Origin: Hyphomonadaceae bacterium
GTDB lineage: Bacteria > Pseudomonadota > Alphaproteobacteria > Caulobacterales > Aquidulcibacteraceae
Length of the DNA stretch: 60,497 bases
Assembly (NCBI GenBank): GCA_016791365.1
Contig: JAEUMT010000020.1
Span: 1 to 60,497, forward strand
Direction: 5' to 3'
The notes beneath the pieces were generated by a model. It ran no database searches. It had not been told where the DNA came from and saw only the letters and a list, made by a program, of their open reading frames with translations. Below are positions 32 to 57,949 of the stretch, piece after piece (positions within the stretch are counted from its first letter, which is position 1; every line of letters starts with the position of its first letter). The position numbers and the translations under genes are program-made.

Positions 32-2683
32 ACTCATTGCCTCCGCGATCAACGAAGCCGCATCCTCCAGCACCGCTTCGTCGGCGCCGCCGCGGACGCC
101 GACTTTGCCCATCTCCAGCATCACCGGGGCGGCGAAGGGTGAGACGTGCGGGAGATCGCGGTGAACGATCTTACCTTTGATGCGGGCGAGCAGCGCGCCG
201 AGACGCTTGATATCGAGATAGCCCTCGCCTGCGTCGGCGAAGGCGGCTTGCAGGAGGATGTGGTCGGGTTCGTATTGTTTCAGGACGTCGTAGATCAGGT
301 CGGCGGAGAAGGTAACCTGGCGGCCGGTTTTGCGTTCGGCGCCGGGGAGGTTGCGATTGATCATGCCGGCGATGACGGCGCACTTGGAAAACGTTGACTT
401 CATCAACGTGCTTTCGCTCAGCCAGGATTCGAGATCATCGCCCAACATGTCTTCATCGAAGAGCGCGGCGAGATCGACATCGCCCATCGGTTCGAGGCCC
501 CAGACAGCCATGGCGTATTCGCTGGCGAGAAAACCGGTGGGATTTTTGCCGAGACGTTCGAGGCGGCGGGTGATCAGAACGCCGAGCGTCTGTTGCGCAA
601 GACGGCCTTCGAACGGGTAGCAGACGAGATAGTGTTTGGCGCCGCGCGGGAATGTTTCGACCAGCATTTCGTCCGGCGCGGGCACGACGGAGCGGCGCTT
701 CTGCATCCTGATCCAATCGCGCACTTGCGGCGGCAGCTTTCTCTGCTTCTTCGGGTCGTGCAGCATGTGGCGCACGCGATCGGCGAGGAACGTTGAGAGC
801 GGAAACTTGCCGCCTGCATAGGATGGGACTTTTGGCGTCTCGTCGCCGTGGGCGCGGACGACGAGCGCGTCGGTCTCGCGTACGCCGATCAGACGCAGGA
901 TTTCGCCGGCGAACAGGAAGGTGTCGCCGGGCGCGAGGCCTTCGATAAAGTATTCTTCGATTTGACCGAGGCGGCGGCCCGCGACGAGCGGCGCACCGCC
1001 CCCTTCGTCACGCGCTGTGCGCGCGTTTCTTCCCCCGCGCGCGGGGGAAGAAACGCGGCGGTCCGACGGGCGATGCGCTAAGCGTACGTCGAGCATTTCA
1101 GATTCGACGATGGCGCCGACATTCATGCGGTGTTGCTGCGCAACGGCGGGATTGCGCGCTTTCCAAAGATTGGTGTGCGGGTCCTGGACGATGCGGCGAT
1201 AGCGATCGTAGCTGCGCAGCGCGTAGCCGCCGGTGGCGACGAGATCGATAGTGCGATCGAACGTGGAGCGCGGGAGATTGGCGTAAGGCGCTGTGCTTTT
1301 CACTTCGGCGTAGAGTGCGTCCTCGTCAAACGGCTCGCCGCAGGCGCAGCCCATGATGTGTTGGGCCAGGCAATCGAGACCGCCGACGCGGCGCGATTCG
1401 CCATCGAGCGCGCCTTCTTTCACGGCTTCCTGGGCGGAGCGGCATTCCAGAACTTCGAAGCGATTGCTGGGCGCCAGCAAAGCGCGCGAGGGCTCGTTGT
1501 AACGATGGTTGGCGCGGCCGATGCGTTGAACGAGACGCGCGCAGCCCTTTGGGGCGCCGATCTGGATGACGAGGTCAACGTCGCCCCAGTCAATGCCGAG
1601 ATCGAGGGTGGAGGTGCAGACGACGGCGCGGAGTTTGCCGGCCGCCATGGCAGCTTCGACTTTGCGGCGTTGAGCGACATCGAGCGAGCCGTGGTGGAGC
1701 GCGATGGGGAGAACATCGTCGTTGACGCGCCACAGTTCCTGGAAGGTCATCTCCGCTTGGGCGCGCGTGTTGACGAAGACCAGCGCGAGCTTCGTTTTCT
1801 TGATCGCTTCGTAGATTTCGGGAATGGCGTGGCGCGCGGTGTGGCCGGACCATGGGATGCGCGCGTTGGTATCGAGCACGTCGATGATCGGGGCTGCACC
1901 TGGCGGGGCTTTGACAATGATGTTGCGCAAATCTCCTCCTCCCCCTTGCGGGGAGGAGGTCGGGAGGTGGGGGGCGTTCAATTGAGCAGGCGCCTGCGTG
2001 GTTGAACGCCCCCCCTCACCCTGCCCTCTCCCCCGCGAGGGGGGAGAGGGTTCTGAACCGAGCAACCAATGTACGAGTCCCGCTTCATCCGCGACGGTGG
2101 CGCTGAGGCCGATGCGGCGATGCGCGGGGGCCCAGCGTTGCAGACGCGCGAGGGCGAGCGCCAAAAGATCGCCGCGTTTGGTGGGGGCGAGAGCGTGGAT
2201 TTCGTCGATGACGATGGCTTGCAAATCTTCGAAGAAGACGCGCGCATGTTCGGAGGCGATGAGCAGCGATAATTGCTCAGGCGTGGTGAGTAGAATGTCG
2301 GGCGGGTGGCTGCGCTGACGTTGGCGCTTCGAGGATGGCGTGTCGCCGGTACGGGTTTCGATGCGCAGGCCGAGCTGCATCTCGCTTGCCGGAATGCCGA
2401 GGTTGCGCGCGACATCGGTGGTCAGCGCTTTCAGCGGCGAAACATAGAGCGTGTGCAAACGATGCGGGCGGCGTGAGCCTTCGGCTTTCAGCGGCGCAAG
2501 TTCGATCAGGCTTGGCAGGAAGCCAGCGAGGGTTTTTCCGGCGCCGGTTGGGGCGATCAGCAATGTGGAGAGACCGGCCTGAGCGCGGGAGATGAGTTCG
2601 AGCTGATGCGGCCGCGGCGCCCAGCCGCGCGCGGCGAACCATTCCTCGAATGGCGACGGCAGAAGTGGAACGCGCGCGTCCAT
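29..2683 (-). CDS. Lhr-like DEXH-box helicase (ligase-associated type)
   Basis: ATP-dependent superfamily 2 helicase of the Lhr group, of the type often found with DNA-repair ligase and a metallo-exonuclease. Walker A APTGAGKT lies near residues 44-51 and the DEIH box near 160; a helicase C domain follows, then the Lhr winged-helix and C-terminal region. The ATG at 2683 is chosen; a TTG six codons upstream (2701) is the only longer start. Two stretches do not belong to the family and coincide with palindromic DNA repeats: a Pro/Gly/Arg/Ser-rich segment around residues 210-251 (DNA 1931-2055), between the two RecA-like lobes, and one around residues 540-565 (DNA 1023-1056 and flanks). The frame stays open through both, so the gene is probably functional. 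The stop codon lies inside a REP arm. No ligase gene is visible; it may lie beyond the left edge. Confidence 0.9.
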   Translation of the reverse strand: MDARVPLLPSPFEEWFAARGWAPRPHQLELISRAQAGLSTLLIAPTGAGKTLAGFLPSLIELAPLKAEGSRRPHRLHTLYVSPLKALTTDVARNLGIPASEMQLGLRIETRTGDTPSSKRQRQRSHPPDILLTTPEQLSLLIASEHARVFFEDLQAIVIDEIHALAPTKRGDLLALALARLQRWAPAHRRIGLSATVADEAGLVHWLLGSEPSPPSRGRGQGEGGRSTTQAPAQLNAPHLPTSSPQGGGGDLRNIIVKAPPGAAPIIDVLDTNARIPWSGHTARHAIPEIYEAIKKTKLALVFVNTRAQAEMTFQELWRVNDDVLPIALHHGSLDVAQRRKVEAAMAAGKLRAVVCTSTLDLGIDWGDVDLVIQIGAPKGCARLVQRIGRANHRYNEPSRALLAPSNRFEVLECRSAQEAVKEGALDGESRRVGGLDCLAQHIMGCACGEPFDEDALYAEVKSTAPYANLPRSTFDRTIDLVATGGYALRSYDRYRRIVQDPHTNLWKARNPAVAQQHRMNVGAIVESEMLDVRLAHRPSDRRVSSPARGGRNARTARDEGGGAPLVAGRRLGQIEEYFIEGLAPGDTFLFAGEILRLIGVRETDALVVRAHGDETPKVPSYAGGKFPLSTFLADRVRHMLHDPKKQRKLPPQVRDWIRMQKRRSVVPAPDEMLVETFPRGAKHYLVCYPFEGRLAQQTLGVLITRRLERLGKNPTGFLASEYAMAVWGLEPMGDVDLAALFDEDMLGDDLESWLSESTLMKSTFSKCAVIAGMINRNLPGAERKTGRQVTFSADLIYDVLKQYEPDHILLQAAFADAGEGYLDIKRLGALLARIKGKIVHRDLPHVSPFAAPVMLEMGKVGVRGGADEAVLEDAASLIAEAMS
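1023..1056. repeat. Perfect 34-nt palindrome inside the helicase gene
   Basis: Two 17-nt arms with no spacer (1023-1039 and 1040-1056), reading GCGTTTCTTCCCCC outward from each end. It is translated within the helicase as part of an SSPARGG-containing segment that interrupts the conserved region before the EEYF motif. Confidence 0.85.
1931..2055. repeat. Composite palindromic element inside the helicase gene
   Basis: Two GC-rich hairpins at the ends (CTCC-rich around 1935-1958 and CCCTCTCCCC-rich around 2024-2050) flank a longer inverted repeat. In that repeat, ggcgttcaa at about 1973-1981 pairs with ttgaacgcc at about 2002-2010, and both arms continue into G/C runs. The element adds about 42 residues to the helicase without breaking its frame. 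The same family occurs at 9324-9452, 28212-28254 and 50194-50287. Confidence 0.8.
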
Positions 2684-2766
2684 GACGCCAATGTAGTGCA
2701 AAGCGGCCCGGGCCGAAGCCCTCCCCGCCGTTGAGCGGCCGCAATTGGCATGGCATGGTCCGCCCC

Positions 2767-3444
2767 ATGTTCAGGACATTCCGATTTCTGATTATCGCCG
2801 GCGTGGCGGCGTTTGCCGTATCCGCCGCGGCTCAGAGCGTGGGACCGGCGCTTCTCATTGAAGCGGTCGCGGCGACGCAGGCCGCCAAGGCCGATTACGC
2901 GTTCGATTTTGAATTGGATACGTCGAAGGCCAATTGGCGGGCGCGATTTGATCCGGAGGCGACGCCGAATCTGCGGCTCGTCGCGCCGGCCCGCGAGCAG
3001 CTCGACAACACTCAACGCCAAGCGTTTGACCGGATGGCCGCCGATTTCGAGGGCGTATCCTGGTGCGCCAGCGAGAGCATGGGGCGGGTCAGCAGTATGC
3101 GGCTGGTGCGCGAAGACGAGACCAGCGCGACGTATTCGTTTCAGCCGACGCGAGAGAGCATACGCAGTGAGCGCGCGCGTCAGTTTGCGGACCGGTTGCG
3201 CGGCGAGGTGACGATCCTGAAGGCGGCGCCGGATATTGCGCGCGTGCGCTTGTTCGCGGCTGAGAGTTTCAGCCCCGTGCCGTTGGTTCGAGTCGATGCA
3301 TTCAACACGGTGATCACGTGCCAGGCGGCGCCGAACGGACGGCGCTTCGCGGCGGAGACGAATACGCACTTGCGCGGCAGCGCATTCGGGCAGGCGTTTG
3401 ACGAGCGCTCGGTGCAGCGCGCGCGGAATCTGAGCGCGTCATGA
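2767..3444 (+). CDS. Secreted protein of unknown function
   Basis: A 225-residue protein with an N-terminal signal peptide: a short basic start, a hydrophobic stretch, then AAAQ as the probable signal peptidase I site near residue 23. No enzyme motif is recognised. Two cysteines, one in a WCAS context mid-protein and one in TCQA near the end, could form a disulfide. The ATG at 2767 is preferred over two upstream starts because the signal peptide begins there. It overlaps the next gene by four bases (ATGA), so the two are probably co-translated and may act together at the envelope. Confidence 0.7.
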   Translation: MFRTFRFLIIAGVAAFAVSAAAQSVGPALLIEAVAATQAAKADYAFDFELDTSKANWRARFDPEATPNLRLVAPAREQLDNTQRQAFDRMAADFEGVSWCASESMGRVSSMRLVREDETSATYSFQPTRESIRSERARQFADRLRGEVTILKAAPDIARVRLFAAESFSPVPLVRVDAFNTVITCQAAPNGRRFAAETNTHLRGSAFGQAFDERSVQRARNLSAS

Positions 3445-4139
3445 AGGCGCCTCACCTTCGCGCGGATCGCGTTCTGGCGACGCTGGAGCAATTGCAGACG
3501 CGGATCAATGCGCGCTTCCCCGATGCCGGGCTTTCGAAGGTTTGCGCCGACGTCATCGATACGGCGCGGTTTTGCTCGCGCGACGCCGCCAATTTGGCGC
3601 GTCCGCGCCCGCTCTGGAGGCTCGGCGCGCTGACCTTGGTGGGCCTTGGGATCGCCGCGCAGATCAGCGCCTTCCGGTTCTTGAATATTCGGGTGAGCAC
3701 GCTCACAGCGCCGGAATTGCTGCAGGGCCTGGAAGCGGCGGTGAACCTGCTGATCCTGTTCGGCGGCGCGACCTGGTTTTTGCTGACGCTTGAGGAGCGG
3801 ATGAAGCGGGAACGGGCGCTCGATGCGTTGCACCGGCTGCGTCAGCTCGCGCACGTCATCGACATGCACCAGCTGACCAAGGATCCGACGGTGGTGCTGG
3901 ACGCCCGGAAGACGGCCGCCTCGCCCGACCGGACGATGACGCAGTTCGAACTGACGCGATATTTGGACTATTGCGCCGAGATGCTGTCGTTGATCGGCAA
4001 GCTGGCGGCGCTCTATGCGGACCGGGTGCGCGACAGCGTCGTGATCGCGGCGGTGAACGACGTTGAGAACCTGACGGCAGGGTTGGGCCGCAAGATCTGG
4101 CAAAAGATCACGATCATCGGGGCGCTCGAGGAGCACTGA
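3441..4139 (+). CDS. Membrane-anchored protein of unknown function
   Basis: 232 residues. A soluble N-terminal part of about 55 residues is followed by two transmembrane helices (roughly residues 57-80 and 95-115) that end in a charged EERMKRE segment. A helical cytoplasmic C-terminal half follows. It is translationally coupled to the secreted protein upstream. I do not recognise the family. The two-helix hairpin with long cytoplasmic ends suggests a small envelope scaffold rather than a transporter, but that is inference. Confidence 0.65.
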   Translation: MKAPHLRADRVLATLEQLQTRINARFPDAGLSKVCADVIDTARFCSRDAANLARPRPLWRLGALTLVGLGIAAQISAFRFLNIRVSTLTAPELLQGLEAAVNLLILFGGATWFLLTLEERMKRERALDALHRLRQLAHVIDMHQLTKDPTVVLDARKTAASPDRTMTQFELTRYLDYCAEMLSLIGKLAALYADRVRDSVVIAAVNDVENLTAGLGRKIWQKITIIGALEEH

Positions 4140-4249
4140 GACCCAAAACGCTAACCAAGATTAACCTCGGCTTGAGCAGTCTCCTTCAGCGAAAATCAAA
4201 TAATCGGCGTTAGTATCTCGGGTTCGGTTTGGGGTCTTAGGGTCGATGC

Positions 4250-5152
4250 ATGCAGGGGGTTGATCAGTTCGATCTGTCCGGCCTGACCGCGCTTGTCCTG
4301 GACGACAATCATTATGAGCGCGGCATTTCGCTCGATCAGCTCCGCGCCATGGGGTTTGGCCGCGCTATCGGCGTCGCCAACATCGTGGAAGCCTGGGAAG
4401 GCGTGCGACTTTCAAATCCCGACGTCATCCTGATGGATTGGGTCGGCGGACCTGGCGCTGCCGGTCTCGAATTCGCGCGCCGGATTCGCAAGAACGAGGA
4501 AACGCCAAATCGCGCCGTGCCGATGTTCATGCTGACCTCGCGCGGCGCCGCGGCGGACGTGGAGCTGGCGCGCCGCTCGGGGGTGGACGGTTATTTACGC
4601 AAGCCGATCTCGTCGTTCGCGCTGCTGCAGCGCGTGAAGACGGTGCTGGTCAATCCGCAGCCGTTTGTGGTGACCGCAAGCTATGTTGGCCCCTGCCGGC
4701 GCCGGCGGCGTCCGGACTTGAACTATCTTGGCCCGCTGCGCCGGCTTGATGACGCCGCGCCTGAACAGCTGGTTCGAGGCGACAATGAAGAGCTTGATCT
4801 TAAGGCCGATCTGGCGCGTGCGCGCGTTGCGGCGCTTGAAGCCACGGCGCGGGCGCTGATGCCGGGCGACGCAAAACAGGCGCGCGTCGTTTATCGCGCG
4901 GTGCAGGATCTCGTCGAAGTTGGCGAACAGATCGGCGACCCCAGCCTCGCCATGGGCGCACGGGAAATGGCGCGCTATCTCCAGGCGCAAGGCGCGACCG
5001 ATCGGCTCGATCCAGAAGTCGTCCGCACGCACGTCGCGGCGCTCTACCAGCTTGTTCACCTGCCGCACGCGCTGTGCGAGGAGCGTCAGCGCGTGGCGAG
5101 CAGCTTGAAGCGCATGGTCGATAAAAAGCTGAAACAGGCCGACGCAGCGTAA
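4250..5152 (+). CDS. CheY-like receiver protein with a helical C-terminal domain
   Basis: Residues 12-132 form a receiver domain: the acidic pair D18-D19, the phospho-acceptor D63 in ILMDW, T96/S97 and K118 in LRKP are all present, so phosphorylation is expected. Residues 150-300 are alpha-helical, rich in Arg and Ala, and match no output domain I know; there is no DNA-binding helix-turn-helix, GGDEF or HD motif. It stands alone with no kinase beside it, so its partner is encoded elsewhere. The ATG at 4250 follows an AT-richer 110-base leader containing a TAACC/TTAACC pair at 4151-4166. Single-domain or odd-output regulators of this kind are common in stalked and flagellated alphaproteobacteria. 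Confidence 0.8.
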   Translation: MQGVDQFDLSGLTALVLDDNHYERGISLDQLRAMGFGRAIGVANIVEAWEGVRLSNPDVILMDWVGGPGAAGLEFARRIRKNEETPNRAVPMFMLTSRGAAADVELARRSGVDGYLRKPISSFALLQRVKTVLVNPQPFVVTASYVGPCRRRRRPDLNYLGPLRRLDDAAPEQLVRGDNEELDLKADLARARVAALEATARALMPGDAKQARVVYRAVQDLVEVGEQIGDPSLAMGAREMARYLQAQGATDRLDPEVVRTHVAALYQLVHLPHALCEERQRVASSLKRMVDKKLKQADAA

Positions 5153-5229
5153 ATTGATCCGCACGCCGCCGGCGCGCGTACGAACCCTCGAACCATTTGT
5201 GCGTTGTCTGACGCAATAGGGAACGAGGC

Positions 5230-8066: not shown

Positions 8067-8082
8067 ACGGTAGCTCCCAGAT

Positions 8083-8706: not shown

Positions 8707-8740
8707 CTTTTTCCTCGGATGACTGTTCTGTCAGCTACAA

Positions 8741-9302: not shown

Positions 9303-9323
9303 TGATCCGTGTGGTGATCTTTG

Positions 9324-9882: not shown

Positions 9883-9885
9883 GCA

Positions 9886-9953
9886 ATATGGACCGTTGGC
9901 GTCCCGCCGGCTGGCTCCCGTGCATGCCGGCGAGACGCCGGCGGTCCATATTA
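9886..9953. repeat. REP-A inverted pair between convergent genes
   Basis: Left arm 9886-9911 and right arm 9926-9951 are imperfect inverted copies of ATATGGACCG..GCCGGC, with a 14-base spacer. It lies between the thioesterase stop codon and the stop codon of the 30-residue peptide gene. The right end (GGTCCATATTA) contains that gene's TAA. Confidence 0.85.
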
Positions 9954-16144: not shown

Positions 16145-16222
16145 GCTTCGACGAACTCAGCATGACGCTACTGTAGGCCGCAGCGCGCGTCGGAATTGGC
16201 GTCATGCTGAGCTTGTCGAAGC
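16145..16222. repeat. Inverted repeat of the CTTCGACAAGCTCAG family
   Basis: Arms 16145-16167 and 16200-16222, 23 bases each with 21 paired, separated by 32 bases. It lies between the convergent queE and dioxygenase genes. A single degenerate copy is at 37402-37425. Confidence 0.85.
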
Positions 16223-24087: not shown

Positions 24088-24155
24088 ATATGGACCGCCG
24101 GCGCCTCGCCGGCATGCGCTGGAGTCGGCCGGCGAGACGCCGGCGGTCCATATTA
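24088..24155. repeat. REP-A inverted pair between convergent genes
   Basis: Arms 24088-24113 and 24128-24153, 26 bases with one mismatch and a 14-base spacer. The left arm starts four bases after the methyltransferase stop. The right end (GGTCCATATTA) carries the TAA of the gene at 24153-25103. Confidence 0.88.
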
Positions 24156-26994: not shown

Positions 26995-28059
26995 ATGATT
27001 TTAGAAGCGATCCAATTCCCCAATATCGACCCGGTCGCCCTTCATCTGGGCACGCTGCCAATTGGCGACGGCATCCGGTTGGACCTGCGCTGGTACGCGC
27101 TCGCCTACATCGTCGGGCTCGTGCTGGGCTGGCGCTGGATGGTGTGGCTGATCCGGCGCGACCGGCTTTGGTCGCCAGGCAAGCCGGCGCTGAGCGTGCC
27201 GCAGGCCGACGACTTTCTGTTCTGGGCGACGCTGGGCGTTATCCTCGGCGGACGGCTTGGATATGTTCTCTTTTACATGCTGCCGACCGCGGTCGAGCGC
27301 GCGAAGATCGCCGCCGATCCGCTGACCATGCTGCGCATCTGGGAAGGCGGCATGAGCTTTCACGGGGGCCTCATCGGCGTTGCGCTCGCGGCGTGGTGGT
27401 TCACGCGCCAGACGCATGTCAACGAAGAGCAATATGCGAAGCTTGCCGCCAAGCACGCGGTCGCGAAGGCGCCGGATGGCCAGGGCGGCAAGTACACGCG
27501 CTTTGGCGATGACAAATGGATTTTGAAGACCGAAGCGGAAGACGCGCGCGTCAAAGCCAAGACCGACAAGGTCGATCTGCTGCGCCTCGGCGATCTCGCC
27601 GCGGCCGCCGCGCCGATCGGGCTGTTCTTTGGACGCATCGCCAACTTCATCAATGGCGAACTCTGGGGCCGCGTGACTGACGTGTCGTGGGGCATGATCT
27701 TCTGTAACGACCGCCTGCTGATGCAGGGCGGCGGCCGTTGCGTCGCGGGCGAAGAACCGCGCCATCCGAGCCAGCTTTACGAGGCGGCGCTTGAGGGCGT
27801 GGCGCTGTTTGCGATCATCAACATCGCAACGCTGAAATTTGACTCGCTGCGCCGCCCAGGCATGAACACCGGCCTGTTCCTGGTGTTCTACGGGCTTTCG
27901 CGCGCCGTGCTTGAAACCGTACGGGAGCCGGACGCGCACATGCCCGAGGCGCTGCGCGGCGTGATCACCATGGGCATGATCCTGTCGATCCCGATGATCC
28001 TTGGCGGCGCATGGCTCATTCAGCGCGCCATGAAGCAACCCAAACTGGCGGCGGCGTGA
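26995..28059 (+). CDS. lgt: Prolipoprotein diacylglyceryl transferase
   Basis: Inner-membrane enzyme that transfers diacylglyceryl from phosphatidylglycerol to the lipobox Cys. The catalytic region SFHGGLIG has H123 (equivalent to E. coli H103). The Lgt signature GRIANFINGELWGR contains R214 (R143 in E. coli), and RHPSQLYEA follows. At 354 residues it is about 60 longer than E. coli Lgt. The excess is a charged segment at about 140-196 between two helices. AGGTGGA precedes the ATG. A GTGA overlap couples it to the next small gene. Confidence 0.93.
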   Translation: MILEAIQFPNIDPVALHLGTLPIGDGIRLDLRWYALAYIVGLVLGWRWMVWLIRRDRLWSPGKPALSVPQADDFLFWATLGVILGGRLGYVLFYMLPTAVERAKIAADPLTMLRIWEGGMSFHGGLIGVALAAWWFTRQTHVNEEQYAKLAAKHAVAKAPDGQGGKYTRFGDDKWILKTEAEDARVKAKTDKVDLLRLGDLAAAAAPIGLFFGRIANFINGELWGRVTDVSWGMIFCNDRLLMQGGGRCVAGEEPRHPSQLYEAALEGVALFAIINIATLKFDSLRRPGMNTGLFLVFYGLSRAVLETVREPDAHMPEALRGVITMGMILSIPMILGGAWLIQRAMKQPKLAAA

Positions 28060-28319
28060 GTTCTGGCGAAGACCGAGCGTGGCAAGCGCTACGCCGCTTG
28101 CGCGATGAAGGCATTCATGTCGTGCGCCAACATGGCTGGGGACGGGGTGAAGCTCCGTCTTCACAGAACACGCACGACAAGGACGCCGAACACACTTCAA
28201 GCGCCGTCGCCTCACCCCACCCCCTAACCCCCTCCTCTCAAGAGGAGGGGGAAATCCCCGCGCATCTTCGCCGCCGCACACGCGCGAACCGCAAGCTCCC
28301 GTCACGGCGTAAATCATGA
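28056..28319 (+). pseudogene. Small gene between lgt and midA-like, probably a truncated DUF559-type protein
   Basis: 87 codons. A GTG overlaps the lgt stop (GTGA) and the TGA overlaps the next start (ATGA), the geometry of a real operon gene. Residues 1-30 (EDRAWQALRRLR, HVVRQH) resemble the N-terminus of DUF559/Vsr-like endonuclease-domain proteins. The rest, including the catalytic part, is missing and replaced by Ser/Pro/Arg-rich sequence containing a palindromic repeat (28212-28254). I infer a degraded gene whose open frame is kept for coupling. It could instead be a functional small protein. Confidence 0.45.
28212..28254. repeat. Palindromic element inside the small post-lgt gene
   Basis: Arms CCCCCTCCTCT (28228-28238) and AGAGGAGGGGG (28241-28251) with a two-base loop, preceded by a CTCACCCCACCCCCTAA tract. 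It belongs to the CTCACCC/CTCTCC family also seen at 1931-2055, 9324-9452 and 50194-50287. It is translated in frame. Confidence 0.8.
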
Positions 28320-29360: not shown

Positions 29361-29458
29361 TCTGGACCGCCGGCGCCCTCGCCGGCATTCAGCGCCAAAC
29401 TTGCGCGCGGTGTAGAAGCTTACACAGTGCATGCCGGCGAGGGCGCCGGCGGTCCAGA
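29361..29458. repeat. REP-B inverted pair (BIME-like)
   Basis: Perfect 28-base arms 29361-29388 and 29431-29458 (TCTGGACCGCC..GCCGGCAT) around a 42-base spacer. It starts immediately after the methyltransferase stop codon and ends six bases before pgeF. It has the same arm sequence as the copies flanking the RAYT gene. Confidence 0.92.
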
Positions 29459-49035: not shown

Positions 49036-49057
49036 TGCGATTAACCCAAATGCGGCC

Positions 49058-50992
49058 TTAACGCCGTTTGAGCGCTCTATGCAGAAAACGGGCCGGATGA
49101 ATCGCGTCGCGCGCGAGTTGGCTTAACAGCCCAGGTTCATTGCACATTTCGCCGGCGAGAATTTCGCCGAGCAAGGGTGCGAGGGTGAGGCCGCGCGCCC
49201 CTAAACCACCGATAACGTAAATGCCGGTATGCGCCGGCGGCGGTGTTTGTGTCTGAACCATGCGGCCATGCGCGAGATCAGCGTACTGCGCTAACCATGC
49301 TTGCGCATCAGGCAGGAGACCCGCAATCGGCGCGCGATCCGGCGTCGTCGCGCGCTGCGAGGCGCGTGAGTGCAGCGATGTTTCGTCGATGCTTGATGCG
49401 ATGTCGGGCGCCAGGTCGCGGAGCGCTGCGAGGTTGCGGGCGCGGGCGTCTTCGGGAGGCGCTGGCGTCTTGTCGAACGTGGCGCCGAAGAGAACGCCGC
49501 CATCGTACGGCGCGACGTAGCTGCCGCACGTGAGTGCGCGCCGCGGAGACGCTCCCTGCCCCCATTCGATCTGGCCGTGCGAGATCGCGATCGGAAGAAA
49601 AGACGCAGGCCCAAATGCGGTGAGCGCGGCGCCGCAGGCCAGCACGACTGCATCGGCCTTGAGAAGCGCACGGCCGTCGGGCGCGATGAGTATCCAGCCG
49701 TCGCCGTCGCGATCTATGCGTTGGACGGGCGACTCGAAGATCACCGACGCGCCTTCAAGCATGCGTCTGATCGCAGCTTGCGGTCTGACCACGCCGGCAT
49801 GGGCGTGAAGAGCGGCGCCGTTTGACAGAGGCGAGAACCAATCGGCGGGCAGTGGCGGATCATTGAGCAGATCGGCGAGGGCTTCGGCGCTGTCTGATTG
49901 CGGGCGTTGTTCGACGCCGCATTCATCAATGACGCCCAACGCTTTGTACGTGGCGACGGCGTTGAGATAGGACGCGAGGTGAACCTCGCTGAGCACGCCG
50001 CCGCGATCGAGACGCGGCATCACCAGGCCAACGGGATTGCCGCTGGCGCCGGCGCCAAGTTCGCGCGCGGCTTCGAGGACAACAACTTCGACGCCACGTC
50101 GGATCAGCGCTTGCGCCACGCTGGCGCCGGCGATGCCGGCGCCGAGTATCGCGACGCGCTTTGGGGCGCCGCCGCCGTAGGGGTAGATGCCAACTCCCCC
50201 TCTCCCTTGCGGAGGGGGGGTTGGGGGGTGAGGGGCGTTCCCCTCACCCGTCCGCTGCGCGGACACCCTCTCCGCCAGGGAGAGGGTTTGTTGCAGCACC
50301 GCCTCCAGACGCTCGCGCTTCTTGCCGAAGCCTGACTTCTTTTCGACTGCAAAACCCGCCGATTCCAATCCGCGGCGGACATCGCCGGCGACGGTGAAGG
50401 TTGCGGCCCGCGCGCCGGGCGCGCTGAGGCGGGCAATCTGCTGCAGCAGCGCCGGCGACCACATGCCGGGGTTACGAGCCGGGGCGAAGCCGTCCAGAAA
50501 CCAGGCGTCAAAGGTGCCGGTCATGCCCGCGAGCACGGGTTCGGCGGCGCCGGTATGCAGCGTGAGCGACAGGCCGTCTTCGGGGAACCAGATACGTTGC
50601 GGGGGGTACGCGCGTACCGGCCAGCGGCCGAGAAGCTTCTCCGAGAGCTCGGAAACCTCTGAAAAGTTTGCTAAAACCCTGGCGGCGTCGGCCCTTGCTA
50701 GAGGGAATGACTCGATGGTTGAGATATGCAATTGCGCATGTGGTAACCGCGTCTTTTTCCAGGCCCGCCATACCGCTAAAACGTTCAAACCCGTGCCGAA
50801 ACCAAGCTCGCACAGGGCGAAACGATCCCTGTTTCGCCACCGATCCGGCAATCCGGTTCCCGCAAGAAACACGGCGTCAGCCTCGGCGAGGCCTCCGTCC
50901 TTGGAGAAGTAAATGTCATCGAAGGCTGTGGCGCGGAGCGAGGCGCCGTCTGCGCTCCACTCAATATCCGGCCTAGGCGGCAAACGCGTCAT
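49058..50992 (-). CDS. mnmC: Bifunctional tRNA (mnm5s2U34) methyltransferase / FAD-dependent cmnm5s2U oxidoreductase
   Basis: 644 residues, modifying the wobble uridine of certain tRNAs. The N-terminal MnmC2 methyltransferase (about 1-225) carries ELGFGTGLNVL and the DAWFLDGFAPARNP motif. The C-terminal MnmC1 FAD domain (about 270-640) begins VAILGAGIAGASVA and has SGNPVGLVMPRL. The linker at about 235-266 is Pro/Gly-rich and is encoded by a palindromic repeat (50194-50287), so the two domains are joined through repeat-derived sequence. The start is the ATG at 50992. Confidence 0.92.
   Translation of the reverse strand: MTRLPPRPDIEWSADGASLRATAFDDIYFSKDGGLAEADAVFLAGTGLPDRWRNRDRFALCELGFGTGLNVLAVWRAWKKTRLPHAQLHISTIESFPLARADAARVLANFSEVSELSEKLLGRWPVRAYPPQRIWFPEDGLSLTLHTGAAEPVLAGMTGTFDAWFLDGFAPARNPGMWSPALLQQIARLSAPGARAATFTVAGDVRRGLESAGFAVEKKSGFGKKRERLEAVLQQTLSLAERVSAQRTGEGNAPHPPTPPPQGRGGVGIYPYGGGAPKRVAILGAGIAGASVAQALIRRGVEVVVLEAARELGAGASGNPVGLVMPRLDRGGVLSEVHLASYLNAVATYKALGVIDECGVEQRPQSDSAEALADLLNDPPLPADWFSPLSNGAALHAHAGVVRPQAAIRRMLEGASVIFESPVQRIDRDGDGWILIAPDGRALLKADAVVLACGAALTAFGPASFLPIAISHGQIEWGQGASPRRALTCGSYVAPYDGGVLFGATFDKTPAPPEDARARNLAALRDLAPDIASSIDETSLHSRASQRATTPDRAPIAGLLPDAQAWLAQYADLAHGRMVQTQTPPPAHTGIYVIGGLGARGLTLAPLLGEILAGEMCNEPGLLSQLARDAIHPARFLHRALKRR
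50194..50287. repeat. Composite palindromic element inside mnmC
   Basis: Hairpins at 50196-50220 (CCCCTCTCCC..GGAGGGG), 50228-50247 (GTGAGGGG..CCCCTCAC), 50249-50263 (GTCCGCTGCGCGGAC) and 50266-50286 (CCCTCTCCGCC..GGAGAGGG). It lies in the interdomain linker, in frame, and belongs to the same family as 1931-2055. Confidence 0.85.
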
Positions 50993-51011
50993 TGAGAGAG
51001 CCTAACGCAAA

Positions 51012-51035: not shown

Positions 51036-51061
51036 CAGCGAAAACTACGTTGAAACGTAGA

Positions 51062-51280: not shown

Positions 51281-51428
51281 AGGTTACTACCCCTCGTCTC
51301 AGCGTCAGGGTCTACCCCCAACGCAAGGAGGCGACTCCATGCCAAGGATTAACTAGAATGGCAAGCGACAGAGCGTCTCACGTCCATGCATATCTGCATA
51401 GCTTTGCGCAGCTAAGTTATGCCTGGCA

Positions 51429-52295: not shown

Positions 52296-52435
52296 GTTAG
52301 CGCGCGTTTACCTAAAGGCGTTCTGCCAGTAGCGCCTTATGCCCGAAGCCGCTTAACGCGCCGTTTCGGTGAATGAATAGAAACGCTAACGCGCATTAAT
52401 CGGCGGGCCTGGAAGCGGCGTAAGCGCCACACTAA

Positions 52436-53152: not shown

Positions 53153-53230
53153 ATCGCACGCGTTGCGAATAGTGGGGATAGCGCCCTTTCCCGGCGTGTC
53201 GGATTCAGCGTAGCAAGGCGGCGCTCGCTC

Positions 53231-54532
53231 ATGCCAGACACCCAGCCGCCCCTGCCCGAGAACGTGCACGCCGATAGCCGCGCGCCGATCGGACGCAACC
53301 GCCAATTCCGGCTGCTGTTCTTGTGTTTGCTGGTGATCGGCGCCGGCAATTCGATGCTGCTTGCCGTCGCGCCGCCGTTGGTGCGCGAACTTGGGCTCGC
53401 GGACTCGAGCGTCGGCTGGATATTTTCACTCTCGGCGCTGCTTTGGGTGCTGATGAGCCCCGGCTGGGGACGTTTGTCGGATCGGATCGGACGCAAGCCT
53501 GTCGCGGCGCTGGGTCTTGGCGCCTACGCGGTTTCGATGATGTCGTTTGGCATTGTCGTGATGCTTGGACAGTCGGGCTGGCTGACGGGACTTTGGCTGT
53601 TCACGTGGCTGATGCTGGCGCGCGCGATCTTCGGCGCCTTCGGCTCGGCGTCATCGCCGGCCGCACAAGCCTACATTGCGGATCGAACAACGCGTCTTGA
53701 ACGCACCGAGCAGCTTGCCGGGCTCACGGCCGCATTCGCGCTTGGGCAGGCGTTTGGTCCCGCGATCTGCGCGGCGCTGGCCGCGAAGTTCGGACTGGTG
53801 TTTCCGATCTGGCTGGTTGCGGTTCTGGCGGCGATTGCTTCGTTCACAATCTGGCGCTTCCTGCCGGAGAACACGCCGCCAAAAGCGGAACGGCCCAAAG
53901 GCGAGTGGCATGAATCGCTGAAACTCATTCGCGACAAGCGGCTCTCTGCATATCTCATCTATGGGTTTGCGCTCTCGGTGGTCGCCGGCGTGACGGTGCA
54001 GGTCTTTGGCTTGTTCACGATGGACCGCCTCGGAGCCTCGGGTGAACAAGGCGCTGAACTCACAGCGGCCGGCTTCATGGTCAACGCGCTCGCGTTGCTG
54101 GCGACGCAGATGGCGATCCTGCCGCGGCTGAGGCTCGGACCGCGGGGACTGATGGCGTGGGGCGCGGGCTTGTTGGCGCTTGGTGTTGGCGTGCAGATCA
54201 TCTCCGACACGCTGGCGGCTCTGCTTGTTGCGCAGGCTGTGCAGGGCTTGGGCTCAGGGCTGGCGCGACCAGGCTTTAGCGGCGGCGCATCGGTAGCGGT
54301 ACACCCGCATGAACAAGGCAGCGCGGCGGGACTTGTCGTCGCCGCCAATGGCGCGGGCTTTGTGTTCTCGCCTTTGATTGGTGGTGTGGTTTACGAGACC
54401 GTGGGCATGAACGCGCCGCTCATTATCATGCTCGTTGTGCTGATCGGCATGATGATCTTTGCGCTTCGCAGCCGGCGCCTGCGCAATTCCACGCCGACTG
54501 ATCCGCCGCCGCCGGATCCCGCTCAGCCCTAA
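53231..54532 (+). CDS. MFS transporter, drug-efflux type
   Basis: 433 residues with 12 helices, motif A SDRIGRKPVAALG and an additional RSGD-like loop. It resembles TetA/multidrug DHA1 exporters. The C-terminal Pro/Asp tail is disordered. Its end overlaps the convergent transglycosylase gene by four bases. Confidence 0.86.
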   Translation: MPDTQPPLPENVHADSRAPIGRNRQFRLLFLCLLVIGAGNSMLLAVAPPLVRELGLADSSVGWIFSLSALLWVLMSPGWGRLSDRIGRKPVAALGLGAYAVSMMSFGIVVMLGQSGWLTGLWLFTWLMLARAIFGAFGSASSPAAQAYIADRTTRLERTEQLAGLTAAFALGQAFGPAICAALAAKFGLVFPIWLVAVLAAIASFTIWRFLPENTPPKAERPKGEWHESLKLIRDKRLSAYLIYGFALSVVAGVTVQVFGLFTMDRLGASGEQGAELTAAGFMVNALALLATQMAILPRLRLGPRGLMAWGAGLLALGVGVQIISDTLAALLVAQAVQGLGSGLARPGFSGGASVAVHPHEQGSAAGLVVAANGAGFVFSPLIGGVVYETVGMNAPLIIMLVVLIGMMIFALRSRRLRNSTPTDPPPPDPAQP

Positions 54533-55998
54533 CGGCGCCCGGCGGCGCGGGCGCGCTCCAGCACGACGTCGGTCGCGCGGCCACGCACTTCCATGCCTTC
54601 GGCGCGCTCAAACGCGCGGATGGCGTCGCGGGTGCGCGAACCGATGACGCCATCGGCTGTGCCGGCGCGGTAGCCCTGGCGATTGAGCAGACGCTGCAAT
54701 TCACGGATGCCGCTGCGCTGCAAGCCCCGCGGAACGCGCGCGGGTTCGGGCGCTGTAATGCCGGCGCTGGCGCGTACGCGCGTGAGAAGCGCCGCGGTCG
54801 GGAAACCATCGGCAGGCAGGCTTTGCGCGGATTGGTAATTGCGCACGGCGCGGCGCGTGCCGGAGCCGAAGAGACCGTCAGGGTTGCCGGAATCGTAGCC
54901 GAGGCCATTGAGCAAGGTCTGCAGTTCGAGGATTTGTTCGCGATTGAGCGAGCCCGCGGCGCGCGGCCAATCGGAGACCAAGCCGCCGCGGCCATCGAAC
55001 GCGCGCGCGAGCAACGACACGACGAGCGCGTAGCGATCCGAGTTGTTGTAGCGCCGGATCACTCCGAAATTATGATAGAGCATCAATGCCGGGCCATTGG
55101 CGCCGGCCGGCAAGAAGAGCTGCGCTTGCAGCCCCCATTCCGGACCCGGCCACGAGACGCCGTCGATGCGGCGCACGCCGCGCTCGTTCCAGTCAGCGAT
55201 CGTGCGCTGCGTGCCGTCGGCGAGCGCGTAATCAAAATTGTCCGGCAGGCGCACTTCTTCGAACACGGGTTCGCCGCGGCGCCAGCCGCGATCCTGCAGA
55301 TAATTGCCGATCGATGCGGCGACGTCAGAGCGATTGTTCCAGATATCGCGATGACCATCGCCGTCCCAATCGACAGCGGTGGTGAGATAGACGTCGGGCA
55401 TGAATTGCGGTTGGCCGAGCGCGCCGGCCCATGACGAGCGCAGCTGGCCTTGGCTCGCGAGATCGCGCTCGACCATTTCAACGAGCGCGAGCAGATAGCC
55501 TTCGAACTGGTCGCGGCGGCGGCCTTCGTAAGCGAGCGTCGCGAGCGCGGTTTGCGCATCCCAATTGAGCGCGGCCTCGCCGTAATTGCTCTCAAGGCCC
55601 CAGATGCCAAGGATGATGCCTTGCGGCACGCCGTACCGCGCCTCGACGGCGTCGAGCGTGCTCTGGATTTCGGTTTTCAGCGCGCGCCCGGAGCTGATGC
55701 GGTTTTCGGTGACGCGGTTGGTGACATAGTCCCAGACTGGACTCACGAATTCGGGCTGGCGCTGGTCGAGTTCGATGACCCGCTCATCAGGGGTAATCCC
55801 GGCCATGAGCCGCGCCAGAACGGCGGGGTCCCGCCCCCGCTGGACCGCGCGGCGGGCGAAATCGTCGCGCCATTCGTCGAAGGCGCGGTTCCCGGAAGGC
55901 TGGAAGGTCGGCGGCTGCGGCGTCTGGGCGAGCCCCGTGGACGGCCCGCAGGCGATCGCCAGCGAAACCGCTACGGCAAGTATAAAGGCTCGCGCCAT
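54529..55998 (-). CDS. MltB-like lytic transglycosylase with two peptidoglycan-binding domains
   Basis: 489 residues. The signal peptide is MARAFILAVAVSLAIACG (a lipobox-like LAIAC, so possibly lipidated). The SLT_2 catalytic domain has GLESNYG (catalytic Glu) and ALGQPQFMPD. Two PG_binding_1 repeats at the C-terminus (ILELQTLLNGLGYDSGNPDG and IRELQRLLNRQGYRAGTADG) hold the enzyme to the wall. It cuts glycan strands to 1,6-anhydro-MurNAc. The ATG at 55998 has AAGGGG upstream; an ATG at 56016 is possible. Confidence 0.9.
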   Translation of the reverse strand: MARAFILAVAVSLAIACGPSTGLAQTPQPPTFQPSGNRAFDEWRDDFARRAVQRGRDPAVLARLMAGITPDERVIELDQRQPEFVSPVWDYVTNRVTENRISSGRALKTEIQSTLDAVEARYGVPQGIILGIWGLESNYGEAALNWDAQTALATLAYEGRRRDQFEGYLLALVEMVERDLASQGQLRSSWAGALGQPQFMPDVYLTTAVDWDGDGHRDIWNNRSDVAASIGNYLQDRGWRRGEPVFEEVRLPDNFDYALADGTQRTIADWNERGVRRIDGVSWPGPEWGLQAQLFLPAGANGPALMLYHNFGVIRRYNNSDRYALVVSLLARAFDGRGGLVSDWPRAAGSLNREQILELQTLLNGLGYDSGNPDGLFGSGTRRAVRNYQSAQSLPADGFPTAALLTRVRASAGITAPEPARVPRGLQRSGIRELQRLLNRQGYRAGTADGVIGSRTRDAIRAFERAEGMEVRGRATDVVLERARAAGRR

Positions 55999-56067
55999 CT
56001 GGTACCCCTTCGTCATCAGCCCTCAACGCCCTTATTGTGCGTCGGGGGCCGTATCAACGTCCCCACA

Positions 56068-56096
56068 TTGACTTACCCATGGGGGCCCCTTAGAAG
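56068..56096 (+). promoter_or_regulatory. Probable sigma-70 promoter of rpmJ
   Basis: TTGACT (56068-56073), 17-base spacer, TAGAAG (56091-56096). The 16-base TAGAAGCCCCGCTTCC (56091-56106) is identical to the block at 35487-35502 upstream of rplY, and both continue into a T-rich stretch and CGCCCCGGAA. Confidence 0.6.
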
Positions 56097-56128
56097 CCCC
56101 GCTTCCTTTTCGCCCCGGAAATTCGGCC

Positions 56129-56254
56129 ATGAAAGTCAAGTCGTCGCTCAAGTCGCTCAAAGCCCGTCACCGGGCTTGCCGAGTCGTGCGCCGCAAGGGC
56201 CGAGTTTACGTGATCAACAAGGTTGATCCCCGGTATAAGGCCAAGCAGGGCTGA
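56129..56254 (+). CDS. rpmJ: Ribosomal protein L36, zinc-free type
   Basis: 41 residues. [14 protein letters not shown] and the [12 protein letters not shown] core match L36. It has a single Cys (RACR) and so lacks the four zinc ligands; this is the C-minus form used under zinc limitation or constitutively in alphaproteobacteria. A promoter and a terminator frame it as a single-gene unit. Confidence 0.93.
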
Positions 56255-56280
56255 ATTAGGCCCCAATTGAAGCTCACAGG

Positions 56281-56303
56281 CGCCCGCGAAGCCCTCGCGG
56301 GCG
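56281..56303 (+). terminator. Terminator hairpin after rpmJ
   Basis: 9-bp stem CGCCCGCGA (56281-56289) / TCGCGGGCG (56295-56303) with a 5-base loop, followed by TTGTGAATTT. It lies 27 bases after the rpmJ stop. Confidence 0.7.
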
Positions 56304-56321
56304 TTGTGAATTTCAGGTAAG

Positions 56322-56903
56322 ATGAATTCGATTCATCTCGTCATGCGCAATTTCGTTTTCGCTCTCGTAGCCGCCTTCACGCTGGCCGCTTGCAACGCCG
56401 GCCCGAGCGCGCCCACGCGCGTCGATCCGGAACTCGACGCTCTCTTCGCGCAACTCGAACAAGCCGAAGATCAACAACAGGCCGCGCCGATCGAACAGGC
56501 AATCTGGGCGCGCTGGGCCGACAGCGGCTCGCCGACGGTGAACATTCTGCTCGAGCGCGCGACGGCCGCCGAAGATGCGGGCGATGCCGAGCTGGCTGAG
56601 CGGTTCCTCGATCAGGCGTCCGATCTCGCGCCGGATTACGCCGAGACCTGGAATCGCCGCGCCAATCTCTATTACGCGATCGACGATTATCCGGGCGCGA
56701 TCTCCGCGATCCAGGAAACGTTGAAGCGCGAGCCGCGCCATTTCGCGGCGCTCGCGGCGCTCGGCATGATCTACGAGGAGCTGGGCCAGCAGCGGCCGGC
56801 GCTGGAAGCGTTCCGCGCGGCGCTCGTCATTCATCCGCACTACGAAGTCGCGATCCAGGGCGTGCGCCGGCTTGAACCGCGCGTTGACGGCCGCGACGCG
56901 TGA
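56322..56903 (+). CDS. TPR-repeat lipoprotein
   Basis: 193 residues. The lipobox LAAC puts Cys at residue 24, and three TPR units lie at about 85-185 (AEDAGDAELAERFLDQA, YAETWNRRANLYYAIDDY, FAALAALGMIYEELGQ). It may tether partners to a membrane. An internal ATG at 56343 would give a shorter signal. It is coupled to the next gene by TGATG. Confidence 0.8.
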   Translation: MNSIHLVMRNFVFALVAAFTLAACNAGPSAPTRVDPELDALFAQLEQAEDQQQAAPIEQAIWARWADSGSPTVNILLERATAAEDAGDAELAERFLDQASDLAPDYAETWNRRANLYYAIDDYPGAISAIQETLKREPRHFAALAALGMIYEELGQQRPALEAFRAALVIHPHYEVAIQGVRRLEPRVDGRDA

Positions 56904-57949
56904 TGATGTGGCTGGCGGCAATCGCCGCCGCGCTTGCGCTGGCAATCTACGCACTGGCCGCAAACGCACGCGCGTATGTGCGACGCACCGAGGCGCGGTT
57001 TCCGCCGACCGGCAGGTTTGTCGATGCCGACGGTGTGAATCTGCACATTCGCGAGGCTGGACCTCTTGGAGCGCCGGCGCCCTCGCCGGCATTCGGTGCA
57101 TCAACTGCCGCCACTGCCGAAAGATCAACCACCGTTGCCGGCGAGGGCGCCGGCGCTCCAAGGATTCTTCTCATCCACGGCGCGAGTTCGAACTTGCTGG
57201 AGTTGTGGGGGCCGCTTGCCGAGGAGTTCTCGCCGCTTCACCGCGTCATCGCCTTTGACCGTCCAGGCATGGGCTATTCCGAACGCCCCAAACGCAACGG
57301 CCACACGATGGCGTACCAGGCGCGATGCGCGGCGCGCGTGCTTGAGGAAACAGGCAATGGCCCTGCCCTAGTTGTTGCGCACTCACTTGGGTCAGCGGTG
57401 GCGCTTCGTCTTGCGCTCGACTTTCCGCACCTGGTCAGCGGCCTCGTCCTGGTGGCGCCGGCGTGCAATCCCTATCCGTGGAAACCGGCATGGTGGGCGC
57501 GGCTCTCGGCGACGCCGGTCATCGGCAATCTCTTCTGCACGCTGATCATTCCGTGGCTTGGGCCGCCGCTTAGTCCAAGCAGCGTCGCCAACAATTTTTG
57601 GCCGGCGCCAGTGCCGGTGAATTATCTCACCGAGGCGGGTGTGCCGATGATCTTCCGGCCACGCGCGTTTCGCGCCAGCGCTTACGACGTGTGCGCGTCG
57701 AATGCGGAGTTCGGCGCGCAGCAGCCGCGCTACGGCGACTTACTCACACCCACCGTCATCATCACGGCGGATAAGGACAGGATCGCCTCCCCCAAGCGCC
57801 ACGCGCGCGCTCTGGCCGTGGATTTGCCGGCGGCGGAACTCGTCATTGCGCCAGATACTGGACACATGCCGCATCGCCTGAGGACAGATCTGGTCATCGC
57901 CGCGATTCGGCGTGTCAACGAGATGACGTCAGCGCCCGCCGGAGACTAA
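56903..57949 (+). CDS. Alpha/beta hydrolase with an in-frame repeat insertion
   Basis: 348 residues. An N-terminal transmembrane helix (about 2-23) anchors it. The family core begins [14 protein letters not shown] and continues [10 protein letters not shown]; the nucleophile Ser is in VAHSLGS, the Asp in TADKDRI and the His in DTGHMPH. Between those two segments are about 33 residues, rich in Ala, Gly, Pro and Thr, encoded by a REP-B pair (57065-57162). The insertion lies just before the oxyanion-hole strand, so its effect on activity is uncertain. Confidence 0.85.
57065..57162. repeat. REP-B-related inverted pair inside the alpha/beta hydrolase gene
   Basis: Perfect 27-base arms 57065-57091 and 57136-57162 (CTTGGAGCGCCGGCGCC..GCCGGCA) around a 44-base spacer. 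The arm core GCCGGCGCCCTCGCCGGC is identical to that of the copies at 29361-29458 and 58741-58838; only the outer bases differ. Confidence 0.92.

Follow-up and report, generated by a model that had tools for sequence, protein, structure and literature searches.

The window analysed here, a stretch of 60,497 nucleotides from a Hyphomonadaceae bacterium, contains palindromic elements within several reading frames. A gene for an Lhr-type DEAD/H helicase (29–2701, reverse strand; Pfam DEAD, Helicase_C, WH_Lhr and DEAD_assoc) carries two of them in frame: a two-hairpin element at 1931–2055, which adds a net 37–40 residues compared with six relatives, and a hairpin at 1022–1057, which adds a net 10 residues compared with four relatives. 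The mnmC gene (49058–50992, reverse strand; Pfam Methyltransf_30 and DAO), encoding a methyltransferase and an FAD oxidoreductase, has a two-hairpin element at 50191–50293 in the interdomain linker (net 22–26 residues compared with five relatives), and an alpha/beta hydrolase gene (56900–57949, forward strand; Pfam Abhydrolase_1) has a REP pair at 57065–57162 (net 28 residues compared with five relatives). A further hairpin lies in a short ORF after lgt. These inserts belong to two unrelated families: A, comprising the hydrolase insert, and B, comprising the two helicase inserts and those in mnmC and the ORF after lgt.

The palindromes described at these places were all found. An inverted-repeat search of the window recovered arms of 18 nt (100%) at 1022–1057 and 27 nt (100%) at 57065–57162, an inverted repeat of 81% at 50191–50293, and arms at 1950–2033 within the element at 1931–2055; the palindrome at 28212–28254, after lgt, was read directly from the sequence. 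The ORFs run open across all the elements, again as described. We note that the hairpin at 1022–1057, originally described as a palindromic element at 1023–1056, is indeed present but represents only half of what was a two-hairpin element; one relative (L145) keeps the whole.

Inserts compared with relatives

Insert lengths were compared by counting residues between fixed motifs in each protein. In the hydrolase, the window has 49 residues at this site, compared with 20–23 in 27 of the 28 readable relatives (L199 was unreadable); L186 has a different stretch of 53 residues there. At the second helicase site (1022–1057) the window has 51 residues and 26 of 28 readable relatives have 27–48, with 72 in L145 and 79 in L147. 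The mnmC linker is 62 residues long in the window, 29–46 in 25 of 29 relatives and 53–71 in the other 4; L170 is counted in the shorter group, although its frame begins only within this stretch and the element itself is present in its DNA. At the first helicase site (1931–2055) the window has 59 residues, 11 of 29 relatives have 19–23, and 17 of 29 have 32–71 residues, representing inserts of their own at the same linker (L131 was unreadable there). Comparison with relatives thus shows the inserts as additional segments. In related species, the same protein linkers have been struck repeatedly. The comparison supports the location of the segments in linkers between or beside domains.

The ORF after lgt (28011–28319, forward strand) is a different case. 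It is a decayed gene for a DUF559 nuclease, with a relic of the N-terminal part at approximately 28067–28135 and one remaining family-B hairpin of the decayed unit at 28205–28260, located from the sequence and from an alignment of five loci. In two of these, from sister species (L217 and L219), an intact DUF559 frame occupies the site; the other three (L216, L218 and L220) have nothing there. The window therefore shows three intact genes that carry inserts, rather than at least four.

If the host genes were decaying or mispredicted, the frames might not be translated at all. The ORF after lgt is such a relic, one relative (G001) has an mnmC gene with the same element split over two frames, and an M16 peptidase-like frame has an insert so near its N-terminus that it may precede the true start. 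The split mnmC implies that an insertion can sometimes do harm, unless that draft contains an error. We nevertheless regard untranslated frames as a very improbable explanation: in the helicase and mnmC, matches to their Pfam families lie to either side of the insert, the frames are open in most of the relatives that carry inserts, and inserts also occur in the reading frames of ArgS, UvrC, DNA polymerase I (PolA) and RsmB. Further similar inserts in the same genome are in a 2-oxoacid dehydrogenase E2, MnmA, MetH and an impB/mucB/samB-family polymerase.

Family A and family B in this genome

A gene for a RAYT-type Y1 transposase, the likely driver of family A, lies at 58841–59383 on the reverse strand (Pfam Y1_Tnp, 41.1 bits), with an inverted family-A REP pair on one side (58741–58838) and a family-A arm on the other (59396–59418, forward strand). 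Three more inverted REP pairs of this family are intergenic, at 9885–9952, 24088–24153 and 29361–29458. Across the whole genome there are 143 matches to the family-A arms (72 + 71), compared with none for a reversed control pattern. Three RAYT-like matches were found in the genome, namely the gene in the window, C15:3330–3500 and C3:249–488; the second has family-A arms on both sides, at 3178 and 3576. Family A thus shows two features of RAYT-associated REPs, a palindromic unit in inverted pairs at high copy number and a Y1/HUH transposase gene with the same repeats on both flanks. No constant GTAG tag was seen beside the arms when these were inspected by eye, and family A is nearer to the TIR-type REPs described in PMC3733652. 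The hydrolase insert matches the RAYT flanks with a score of 32.5 (random 99th percentile 21.5) and gave no match to DUF559 flanks (12 at most); it belongs to the RAYT-type tyrosine-transposase system whose transposase lies in the window.

The family-B elements in the helicase, mnmC and the ORF after lgt are C/T-armed hairpins, of which there are 22 in 371 kb of this genome, compared with 0, 1 and 2 in three shuffles. They resemble the flanks of DUF559 genes elsewhere in the genome. The mnmC element is identical at 44 of 45 nt to the flank of one such gene (L040; score 42.5, 99th percentile of random windows 33), and the hairpin after lgt is also closest to L040 (20, 99th percentile 11). The helicase element at 1931–2055 matches L039 best (29.5, compared with 16.5), and an intergenic family-B inverted repeat at 9320–9456 matches the flanks of the gene at L035 (28, compared with 14.9). 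The match of 1022–1057 to L032 is weak and barely above background (16.5, compared with 15.5). Intergenic copies of both families agree with the original observation that the inserts are of kinds also found between genes, and support the view that the palindromes in the helicase, mnmC and hydrolase genes are insertions of such elements. The original description missed the two unrelated probable drivers and the nuclease relic.

All 10 substantial DUF559 matches in this genome have a repeat common to both flanks (an 11th match is a fragment). Flanks from a single gene are more alike than flanks from different genes (permutation p 1e-5). In the unit between glyQ and glyS, a full copy of an element of about 155 nt with constant ends stands on either side of the DUF559 gene. 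The same element occurs alone at 10 other places, with constant ends and differing flanks. Among the 18 relatives' loci read (of 30), the two genes are joined in 10 and a DUF559 frame is present in 5; when all 30 were scanned for DUF559, frames were present in 8 (L301, which is the own locus, and L302, L303, L304, L310, L312, L321 and L323). No target-site duplication was identified among the loci read. One element has two solo copies that reach only 90% and 83% likeness to those flanking its DUF559 gene, and the description of the repeats as an active source of peptide segments is not supported.

Alternatively, hairpins of this kind might not be mobile but serve DUF559 and other genes as terminators or regulatory sites. 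GC-rich stem-loops can terminate transcription, and 15 of 21 family-B clusters are intergenic according to our gene calls, which for the window and contig C4 used a home-made codon score. Some hairpins nevertheless lie inside reading frames and are missing from relatives, the solo copies keep constant ends in differing flanks, and the empty sites already speak against such signals, so that we give this explanation almost no weight. The openness of the elements of both families is unremarkable: of six frames, a mean of 4.6 are open in two-arm family-A clusters (n = 11), compared with 3.7 in random windows, and 2.2 in two-arm family-B clusters (n = 9), compared with 2.9. Since family B lies below random, there is no sign of design for read-through.

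DUF559 genes and hairpins across loci and genomes

DUF559 genes and hairpins are associated at three levels: in this genome, among loci from several phyla, and in comparisons between genomes. We assembled 119 DUF559 loci from several phyla; those from outside this genome were the best-scoring 80 (of at least 550) plus 29 top matches, and so are not a random draw. In 104 of 113 testable loci, copies of a hairpin repeat adjoin or enclose the DUF559 gene, as judged by a flank-repeat or a hairpin-pair test; 9 loci fail both. The same combined test was passed by 10 of 124 control windows, drawn from the loci themselves or from the same genome, and by 9 of 300 random windows of the own genome. The flank-repeat test alone was passed by 62 of 85 loci, and by 22 of 29 further loci compared with 4 of 58 controls. 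The hairpin-pair test, which was added after inspection of the negatives from the first and then applied identically to the controls, was passed by 85 of 113 loci, 8 of 124 controls and 0 of 113 shuffles. Units differ in layout: in some a single arm stands to either side of the gene, in some a full pair does, and in others there is one pair, next to one end of the gene. Because the architecture can be direct, inverted or one-sided, the flank-repeat test alone undercounts. No near-identical empty DUF559 site was found in the Azospirillum and Sinorhizobium records searched, and Shinella has a diverged empty site without an exact junction.

Among 150 genomes, at least 10 CCTCTCCC/GGGAGAGG hairpins were present in 22 of the 31 whose DUF559 match is strong (E up to 1e-10, with split matches merged) and in 4 of the 119 others, DUF559 and pattern counts per genome being copied by hand. 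Weak DUF559 matches only were present in 15 of the 119, none of which reach 10 hairpins. The relation between DUF559 and hairpin richness persists in a within-family permutation (p 1e-4, 8 informative families), and the per-genome DUF559 counts give a Spearman coefficient of 0.656. There are exceptions in both directions: four of the 31 strong genomes have no such hairpin (G125, G141, G164 and G051), and four hairpin-rich genomes have no DUF559 match (G058, G088, G093 and G177), of which G093 also scores on the control pattern and G177 is 87% complete. The more alike two DUF559 proteins are, the more alike are their repeats (Mantel r 0.36, p 2e-4, n = 52), a correlation confounded by host relatedness.

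These counts bear on two other readings. In the first, DUF559 is a homing-type nuclease for which the palindromes are landing sites, the gene being copied in by repair and the repeats spread by something else. DUF559 has a homologue in I-Bth0305I, a homing endonuclease; in 44 of the 62 flank-repeat loci the flanks align best as inverted copies, as if the gene had entered a hairpin pair; and in G005 and G020 the DUF559 frame between glyQ and glyS is beside hairpins of another sequence. Mere targets would not, however, be expected to be mostly missing from genomes that lack strong DUF559, the glyQ–glyS gene here is flanked by two complete elements, and at other loci a hairpin pair is wholly on one side of the gene. 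We consider homing unlikely.

In the second, some other enzyme spreads family B, perhaps a RAYT that acts in trans, and DUF559 is only a passenger in composite units with the palindromes. The genome does contain its three RAYT-like matches, and RAYT/REP elements are similar in architecture (PMC3733652). RAYT presence nevertheless fails to predict family-B hairpins: at least 10 were found in 14 of 88 genomes with RAYT and 12 of 62 without, in 12 of 18 with DUF559 and no RAYT, and in 4 of 75 with RAYT and no DUF559. The flanks of the RAYT gene in the window match family A only. RAYT is therefore not supported as the family-B driver, and we consider this second reading quite unlikely.

DUF559 was also considered as the missing enzyme of CGTC REPs, using a CGTC-type consensus. 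This pattern had no matches in the own genome and only one, doubtful, hairpin of its type (L081) near the 119 DUF559 loci. At least 10 matches to it were found, by hand count on both strands, in 6 of 31 DUF559-positive and 12 of 119 other genomes; the pattern does not follow DUF559, and this role for DUF559 is not supported.

A proposed mechanism and known systems

We think it reasonably probable that the inserts are explained as a whole by two kinds of REP-like, non-autonomous palindromic elements whose copies landed in protein linkers, A spread by RAYT and B by DUF559. Family A would be a RAYT-type tyrosine-transposase system, and family B a DUF559 system in which the gene usually lies next to or between its own hairpins; copies would be retained in linkers because the frame stayed open. 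DUF559 is likely to be the agent that spreads the family-B palindromes. It may recognise the hairpins and nick or cut DNA, after which repair or replication would place a copy elsewhere, along the lines put forward for RAYTs and REPs. Such a nuclease-linked palindrome model would account for the additional peptide segments that keep appearing in conserved proteins.

DUF559 is predicted to be a small Vsr/EDxHD-like nuclease, by fold and by sequence relation. Its best structure match is 3hrl (E 4.8e-32), followed by 3r3p (4.4e-5), with Vsr (1cw0) at only 0.049; Foldseek with the DUF559 model gave 3hrl (6e-8), 3r3p (9e-5) and 1vsr (5e-3). The model thus has a fold in common with Vsr and with the EDxHD homing endonuclease I-Bth0305I (3r3p), but the DUF559 genes here differ from both in being tied to palindromic repeats.

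In E. coli the DUF559 protein is YcjD. The ycjD gene occurs in one copy, and 2064 of 5426 genomes lack it at 80% coverage, even though 5375 of the 5426 contain matches to the stretch after it (median 19 places per genome). One strain without ycjD was examined, and has other genes beside sapF. The E. coli ycjD locus and one from Azospirillum fail the flank test. In Sinorhizobium, a DUF559 unit has 1157 matching places in 248 plasmid records. The repeats after ycjD may be akin to the ‘box C’ repeats of E. coli, and those beside Sinorhizobium DUF559 to RIMEs. Like RIME and box C, short intergenic repeats without known function, these recur in Sinorhizobium and E. coli; the likeness is one of recurrence in the same genomes. 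RIMEs are annotated as intergenic repeats of unknown function in PMC2573895.

We lean, by a little, towards a wider proposal, that DUF559 proteins (YcjD) are dedicated nucleases of palindromic mobile elements unrelated to RAYT across many phyla, including RIME-like repeats of Sinorhizobium and box-C-like repeats of E. coli, and repeatedly add new linkers rich in Pro, Gly and Arg to proteins of housekeeping, DNA repair and RNA modification. This would give a role to a widespread nuclease family, and a common class of palindromic repeats in bacteria, with no named driver in the literature searched, would gain one. The proposal is testable in E. coli K-12, since one MG1655 record carries ycjD and ycjD-type repeats are present in nearly all genomes. 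No link between DUF559 and palindromes was found in the literature searched; VsrA of Caulobacter, a DUF559 protein, is treated as a mismatch-repair nuclease in PMC12907096, and the word ‘palindrom’ is absent from its main text.

In-frame insertion of REPs as such has already been published, and the supposed rarity of such inserts outside Rickettsia is not supported. According to PMC3733652, intragenic REPs are known in several species, with more than half being dimers or groups that encode 20–30 residues, and many lie in repair and tRNA-modification genes; enterobacterial RU elements also occur inside genes (PMC2759123). The intragenic GTAG/CGTC REPs, including Rickettsia RPE-4/6, resemble the inserts here in being in frame, often of 20–30 residues, with many in repair and RNA-modification genes (PMC3733652). 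RAYT/REP systems (REPtron, REPIN) are likewise close, with paired inverted palindromes, solo copies genome-wide and a dedicated enzyme gene that has the repeats on its flanks. Family A has the corresponding transposase; family B differs in having what is predicted to be a Vsr-like nuclease, DUF559, in place of the tyrosine (HUH) transposase.

Two families of palindromic elements

The five palindromes of the original prediction were all found in the window, which makes up 60 kb of a genome of 3.46 Mb in 65 contigs, and they fall into two families. Family A, which includes the insert in the α/β hydrolase gene (57065–57162), has arms resembling GGACCGCCGGCG...CGCCGGCGGTCC. This arm pattern has 143 matches in the whole genome, and a reversed control pattern has none. 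A Y1 transposase (58841–59383) lies between family A arms, as does a further Y1 transposase match on contig C15 (3330–3500, between arms at 3178 and 3576). The hydrolase insert matched the flanks of the window transposase with a score of 32.5, and matched no flank of a gene for DUF559, a small Vsr/EDxHD-like nuclease family. Family A amounts to a RAYT-type system of the ordinary kind.

In family B the 5′ arms are C/T-rich (CTCTCCCC, CTCCTCC, CTTCCCCC), and two-hairpin units are the usual arrangement; 371 kb of contig C4 contains 22 such hairpins, compared to 0, 1 and 2 in three shuffles. Other kinds of palindrome are also present: an inverted repeat TAGGGACTGGGGACTGGG ... CCTAGTCCCCAGTCCCTA between two genes (58270–58344), and a third type beside a gene end (16145–16222), with the inverted pair GCTTCGACGAACTCAGCATGACGC ... 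GCGTCATGCTGAGCTTGTCGAAGC.

Genes in the window and C4 were called by codon score. On this basis, family A elements lie deep inside one of 60 predicted window genes and two of 315 C4 genes (2-oxoacid dehydrogenase E2 and MnmA), while family B elements lie inside two window genes (three elements) and three C4 genes (UvrC, DNA polymerase I and RsmB); of 21 family B clusters, 15 are intergenic and six are in genes. The four further matches to the helicase insert peptide examined in this genome were in ArgS, MetH, an impB/mucB/samB-family polymerase, and an M16 peptidase-like frame, close to its start.

Inserts compared with relatives

Homologues of the host genes were sought in 40 relatives, giving alignments of up to 29 loci per gene. 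These bear out the suggestion that the inserts are extra segments: the 28-residue hydrolase segment is absent from 27 of 28 readable loci, and L186, the sole exception, has another stretch instead. In the Lhr-type helicase gene (29–2701, reverse strand), which carries a two-hairpin element (1931–2055) and a single hairpin (1022–1057) in frame, the linker is short in 11 of 29 relatives; 17 carry inserts of their own at this position, among them genomes from other families (L140, L146), and the remaining locus could not be read. The single hairpin is the remaining half of an element that is complete in L145.

The mnmC gene (49058–50992, reverse strand) has its element at 50191–50293. Judged by eye, several relatives have different palindromic inserts in this linker: another hairpin in L160 (genome G010), a family A-like element in L163 (G002), and family B-like elements in L159 and L169. 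L170 has the same element as the window, but its gene is split over two frames. The linker is a hot spot hit by several systems across species.

The small gene after lgt (ORF 28011–28319, forward strand; hairpin 28205–28260), thought to be a further insert-bearing gene, is instead a relic: a full DUF559 frame occupies the site in L217 and L219, and there is nothing there in L216, L218 and L220. This relic pointed to DUF559 (PF04480) as the candidate driver of family B.

DUF559 genes and family B hairpins

The genome contains eleven DUF559 matches, comprising ten substantial ones (the shortest covering 4–89 of 109 positions) and one fragment. Direct reading of the flanks shows palindromes surrounding these genes. 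In all ten substantial genes the two flanks share a repeat that exceeds the 99th percentile for control pairs, and flank-versus-flank scores average 37.6 within the same gene and 13.9 between genes (permutation p 1e-5). Three of the four family B elements in the window match these flanks well above random windows: the mnmC element (44/45 nt) and the post-lgt hairpin at locus L040, and the two-hairpin helicase element at L039. The match of the single helicase hairpin to L032 is barely above random.

We assembled 119 DUF559 loci (the best 80 from named genomes, the ten described here, and 29 from a phylum-wide draw), of which 113 had a flank long enough for testing. Either the flank-repeat or the hairpin-pair test was passed by 104 of the 113, compared to 10/124 control windows and 9/300 random windows from the same genome. 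A C/T-armed hairpin lies within 500 nt of the domain in 109 of the 113, and on both sides in 83; any such hairpin occurs in 26/124 control windows. Passing loci span Alpha-, Beta- and Gammaproteobacteria, Bacteroidota, Planctomycetota, Myxococcota, Binatota and others. Among seven plasmid-collection loci, the flank test was passed by Deinococcus, a cyanobacterium, Neisseria, Sinorhizobium and Sphingomonas, and failed by Azospirillum (14.0) and E. coli ycjD (12.5). At locus L348, on a plasmid of Sphingomonas parapaucimobilis, sufB and sufC are separated by a DUF559 gene that has matching hairpins.

The association also holds between genomes. In a survey of 150 genomes using the hairpin CCTCTCCC-N(0-12)-GGGAGAGG, 31 genomes matched DUF559 strongly, and 22 of these had ten or more hairpins, versus 4 of the other 119 (0 of the 15 among the latter with weak matches only); the Spearman correlation is 0.66 (within-family permutation p 1e-4). 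In the same survey RAYT presence was unpredictive of family B hairpins. CGTC-type REPs do not track DUF559. Two genomes (G177, G088) are exceptions, being rich in family B hairpins and CGTC repeats yet having no DUF559 match.

The E. coli DUF559 gene, ycjD, adjoins sapF and is found, as a rule in single copy, in 3362/5426 genomes (coverage ≥80%). The stretch after it contains CCCTCACCCCAACCCTCTCCC-type repeats, which we take to resemble E. coli box C repeats. Matches to this stretch occur in 5375/5426 genomes (median 19 places per genome), and are therefore present in genomes without ycjD too. A long palindrome just upstream of ycjD (L297, 2971–3015; near copy in L298) differs from the downstream repeats, and could be an operator.

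A Sinorhizobium DUF559 unit, searched with the gene included, has at least 1157 matching places in 248 plasmid records; among ten matches listed, six are not whole units, and there the match consists of the two ends. On two replicons (L294, L295) CCCTCTCCCCGC...GCGGGGAGAGGG hairpins lie on either side of the gene, and matches to them recur across Sinorhizobium replicons. The S. meliloti annotation includes RIMEs, which are intergenic repeats with no known function (PMC2573895).

The predicted structure of one DUF559 protein (pLDDT 88.7) matches both 3hrl and the homing endonuclease I-Bth0305I, as well as Vsr; sequence profiles support the first two relations, and Vsr weakly. Across 27 DUF559 sequences, residues R9, E16, W20, F33, R35, D45, F46, E56, D58, G59, H62, D71, R74 and R87 do not vary.

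Mobility and comparison with known systems

Between glyQ and glyS, this genome has a full element of approximately 155 nt, then a DUF559 gene, then a second full copy. We read 18 of the 30 relatives' loci returned. The two genes are directly joined in ten; three (G189, G008 and G024, the last without the left element) carry the DUF559 unit; G005 (L310) and G020 (L312), with gaps of 598 and 550 nt, have a DUF559 frame with hairpins of another sequence; G022 shows hairpins but no DUF559, G004 contains a different sequence, and one locus is uninformative. These varied contents indicate more than one entry into this junction. The element also occurs alone, at two places in this genome and at eight in relatives; these solo copies have identical exact ends (CCTCCTCCTCGATGGAGGAGG...CTCCTCCATCGAGGAGGAGC) and differing flanks.

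We suggest that DUF559 may nick or cut DNA at hairpins or at targets, and that the element would then be copied by repair or replication. Insertions within genes would mostly be lost, surviving where they fall in a flexible linker and add a net length that is a multiple of three. Among the papers listed in searches of the PMC open literature, no title or abstract opening connects DUF559 with palindromic repeats.

RAYT-type REPs and family A have the same layout, with the transposase between the arms, although no GTAG tag is visible in family A. Many published intragenic REPs, according to one account, are in repair and tRNA-modification genes (PMC3733652), and the host genes found here agree with this.
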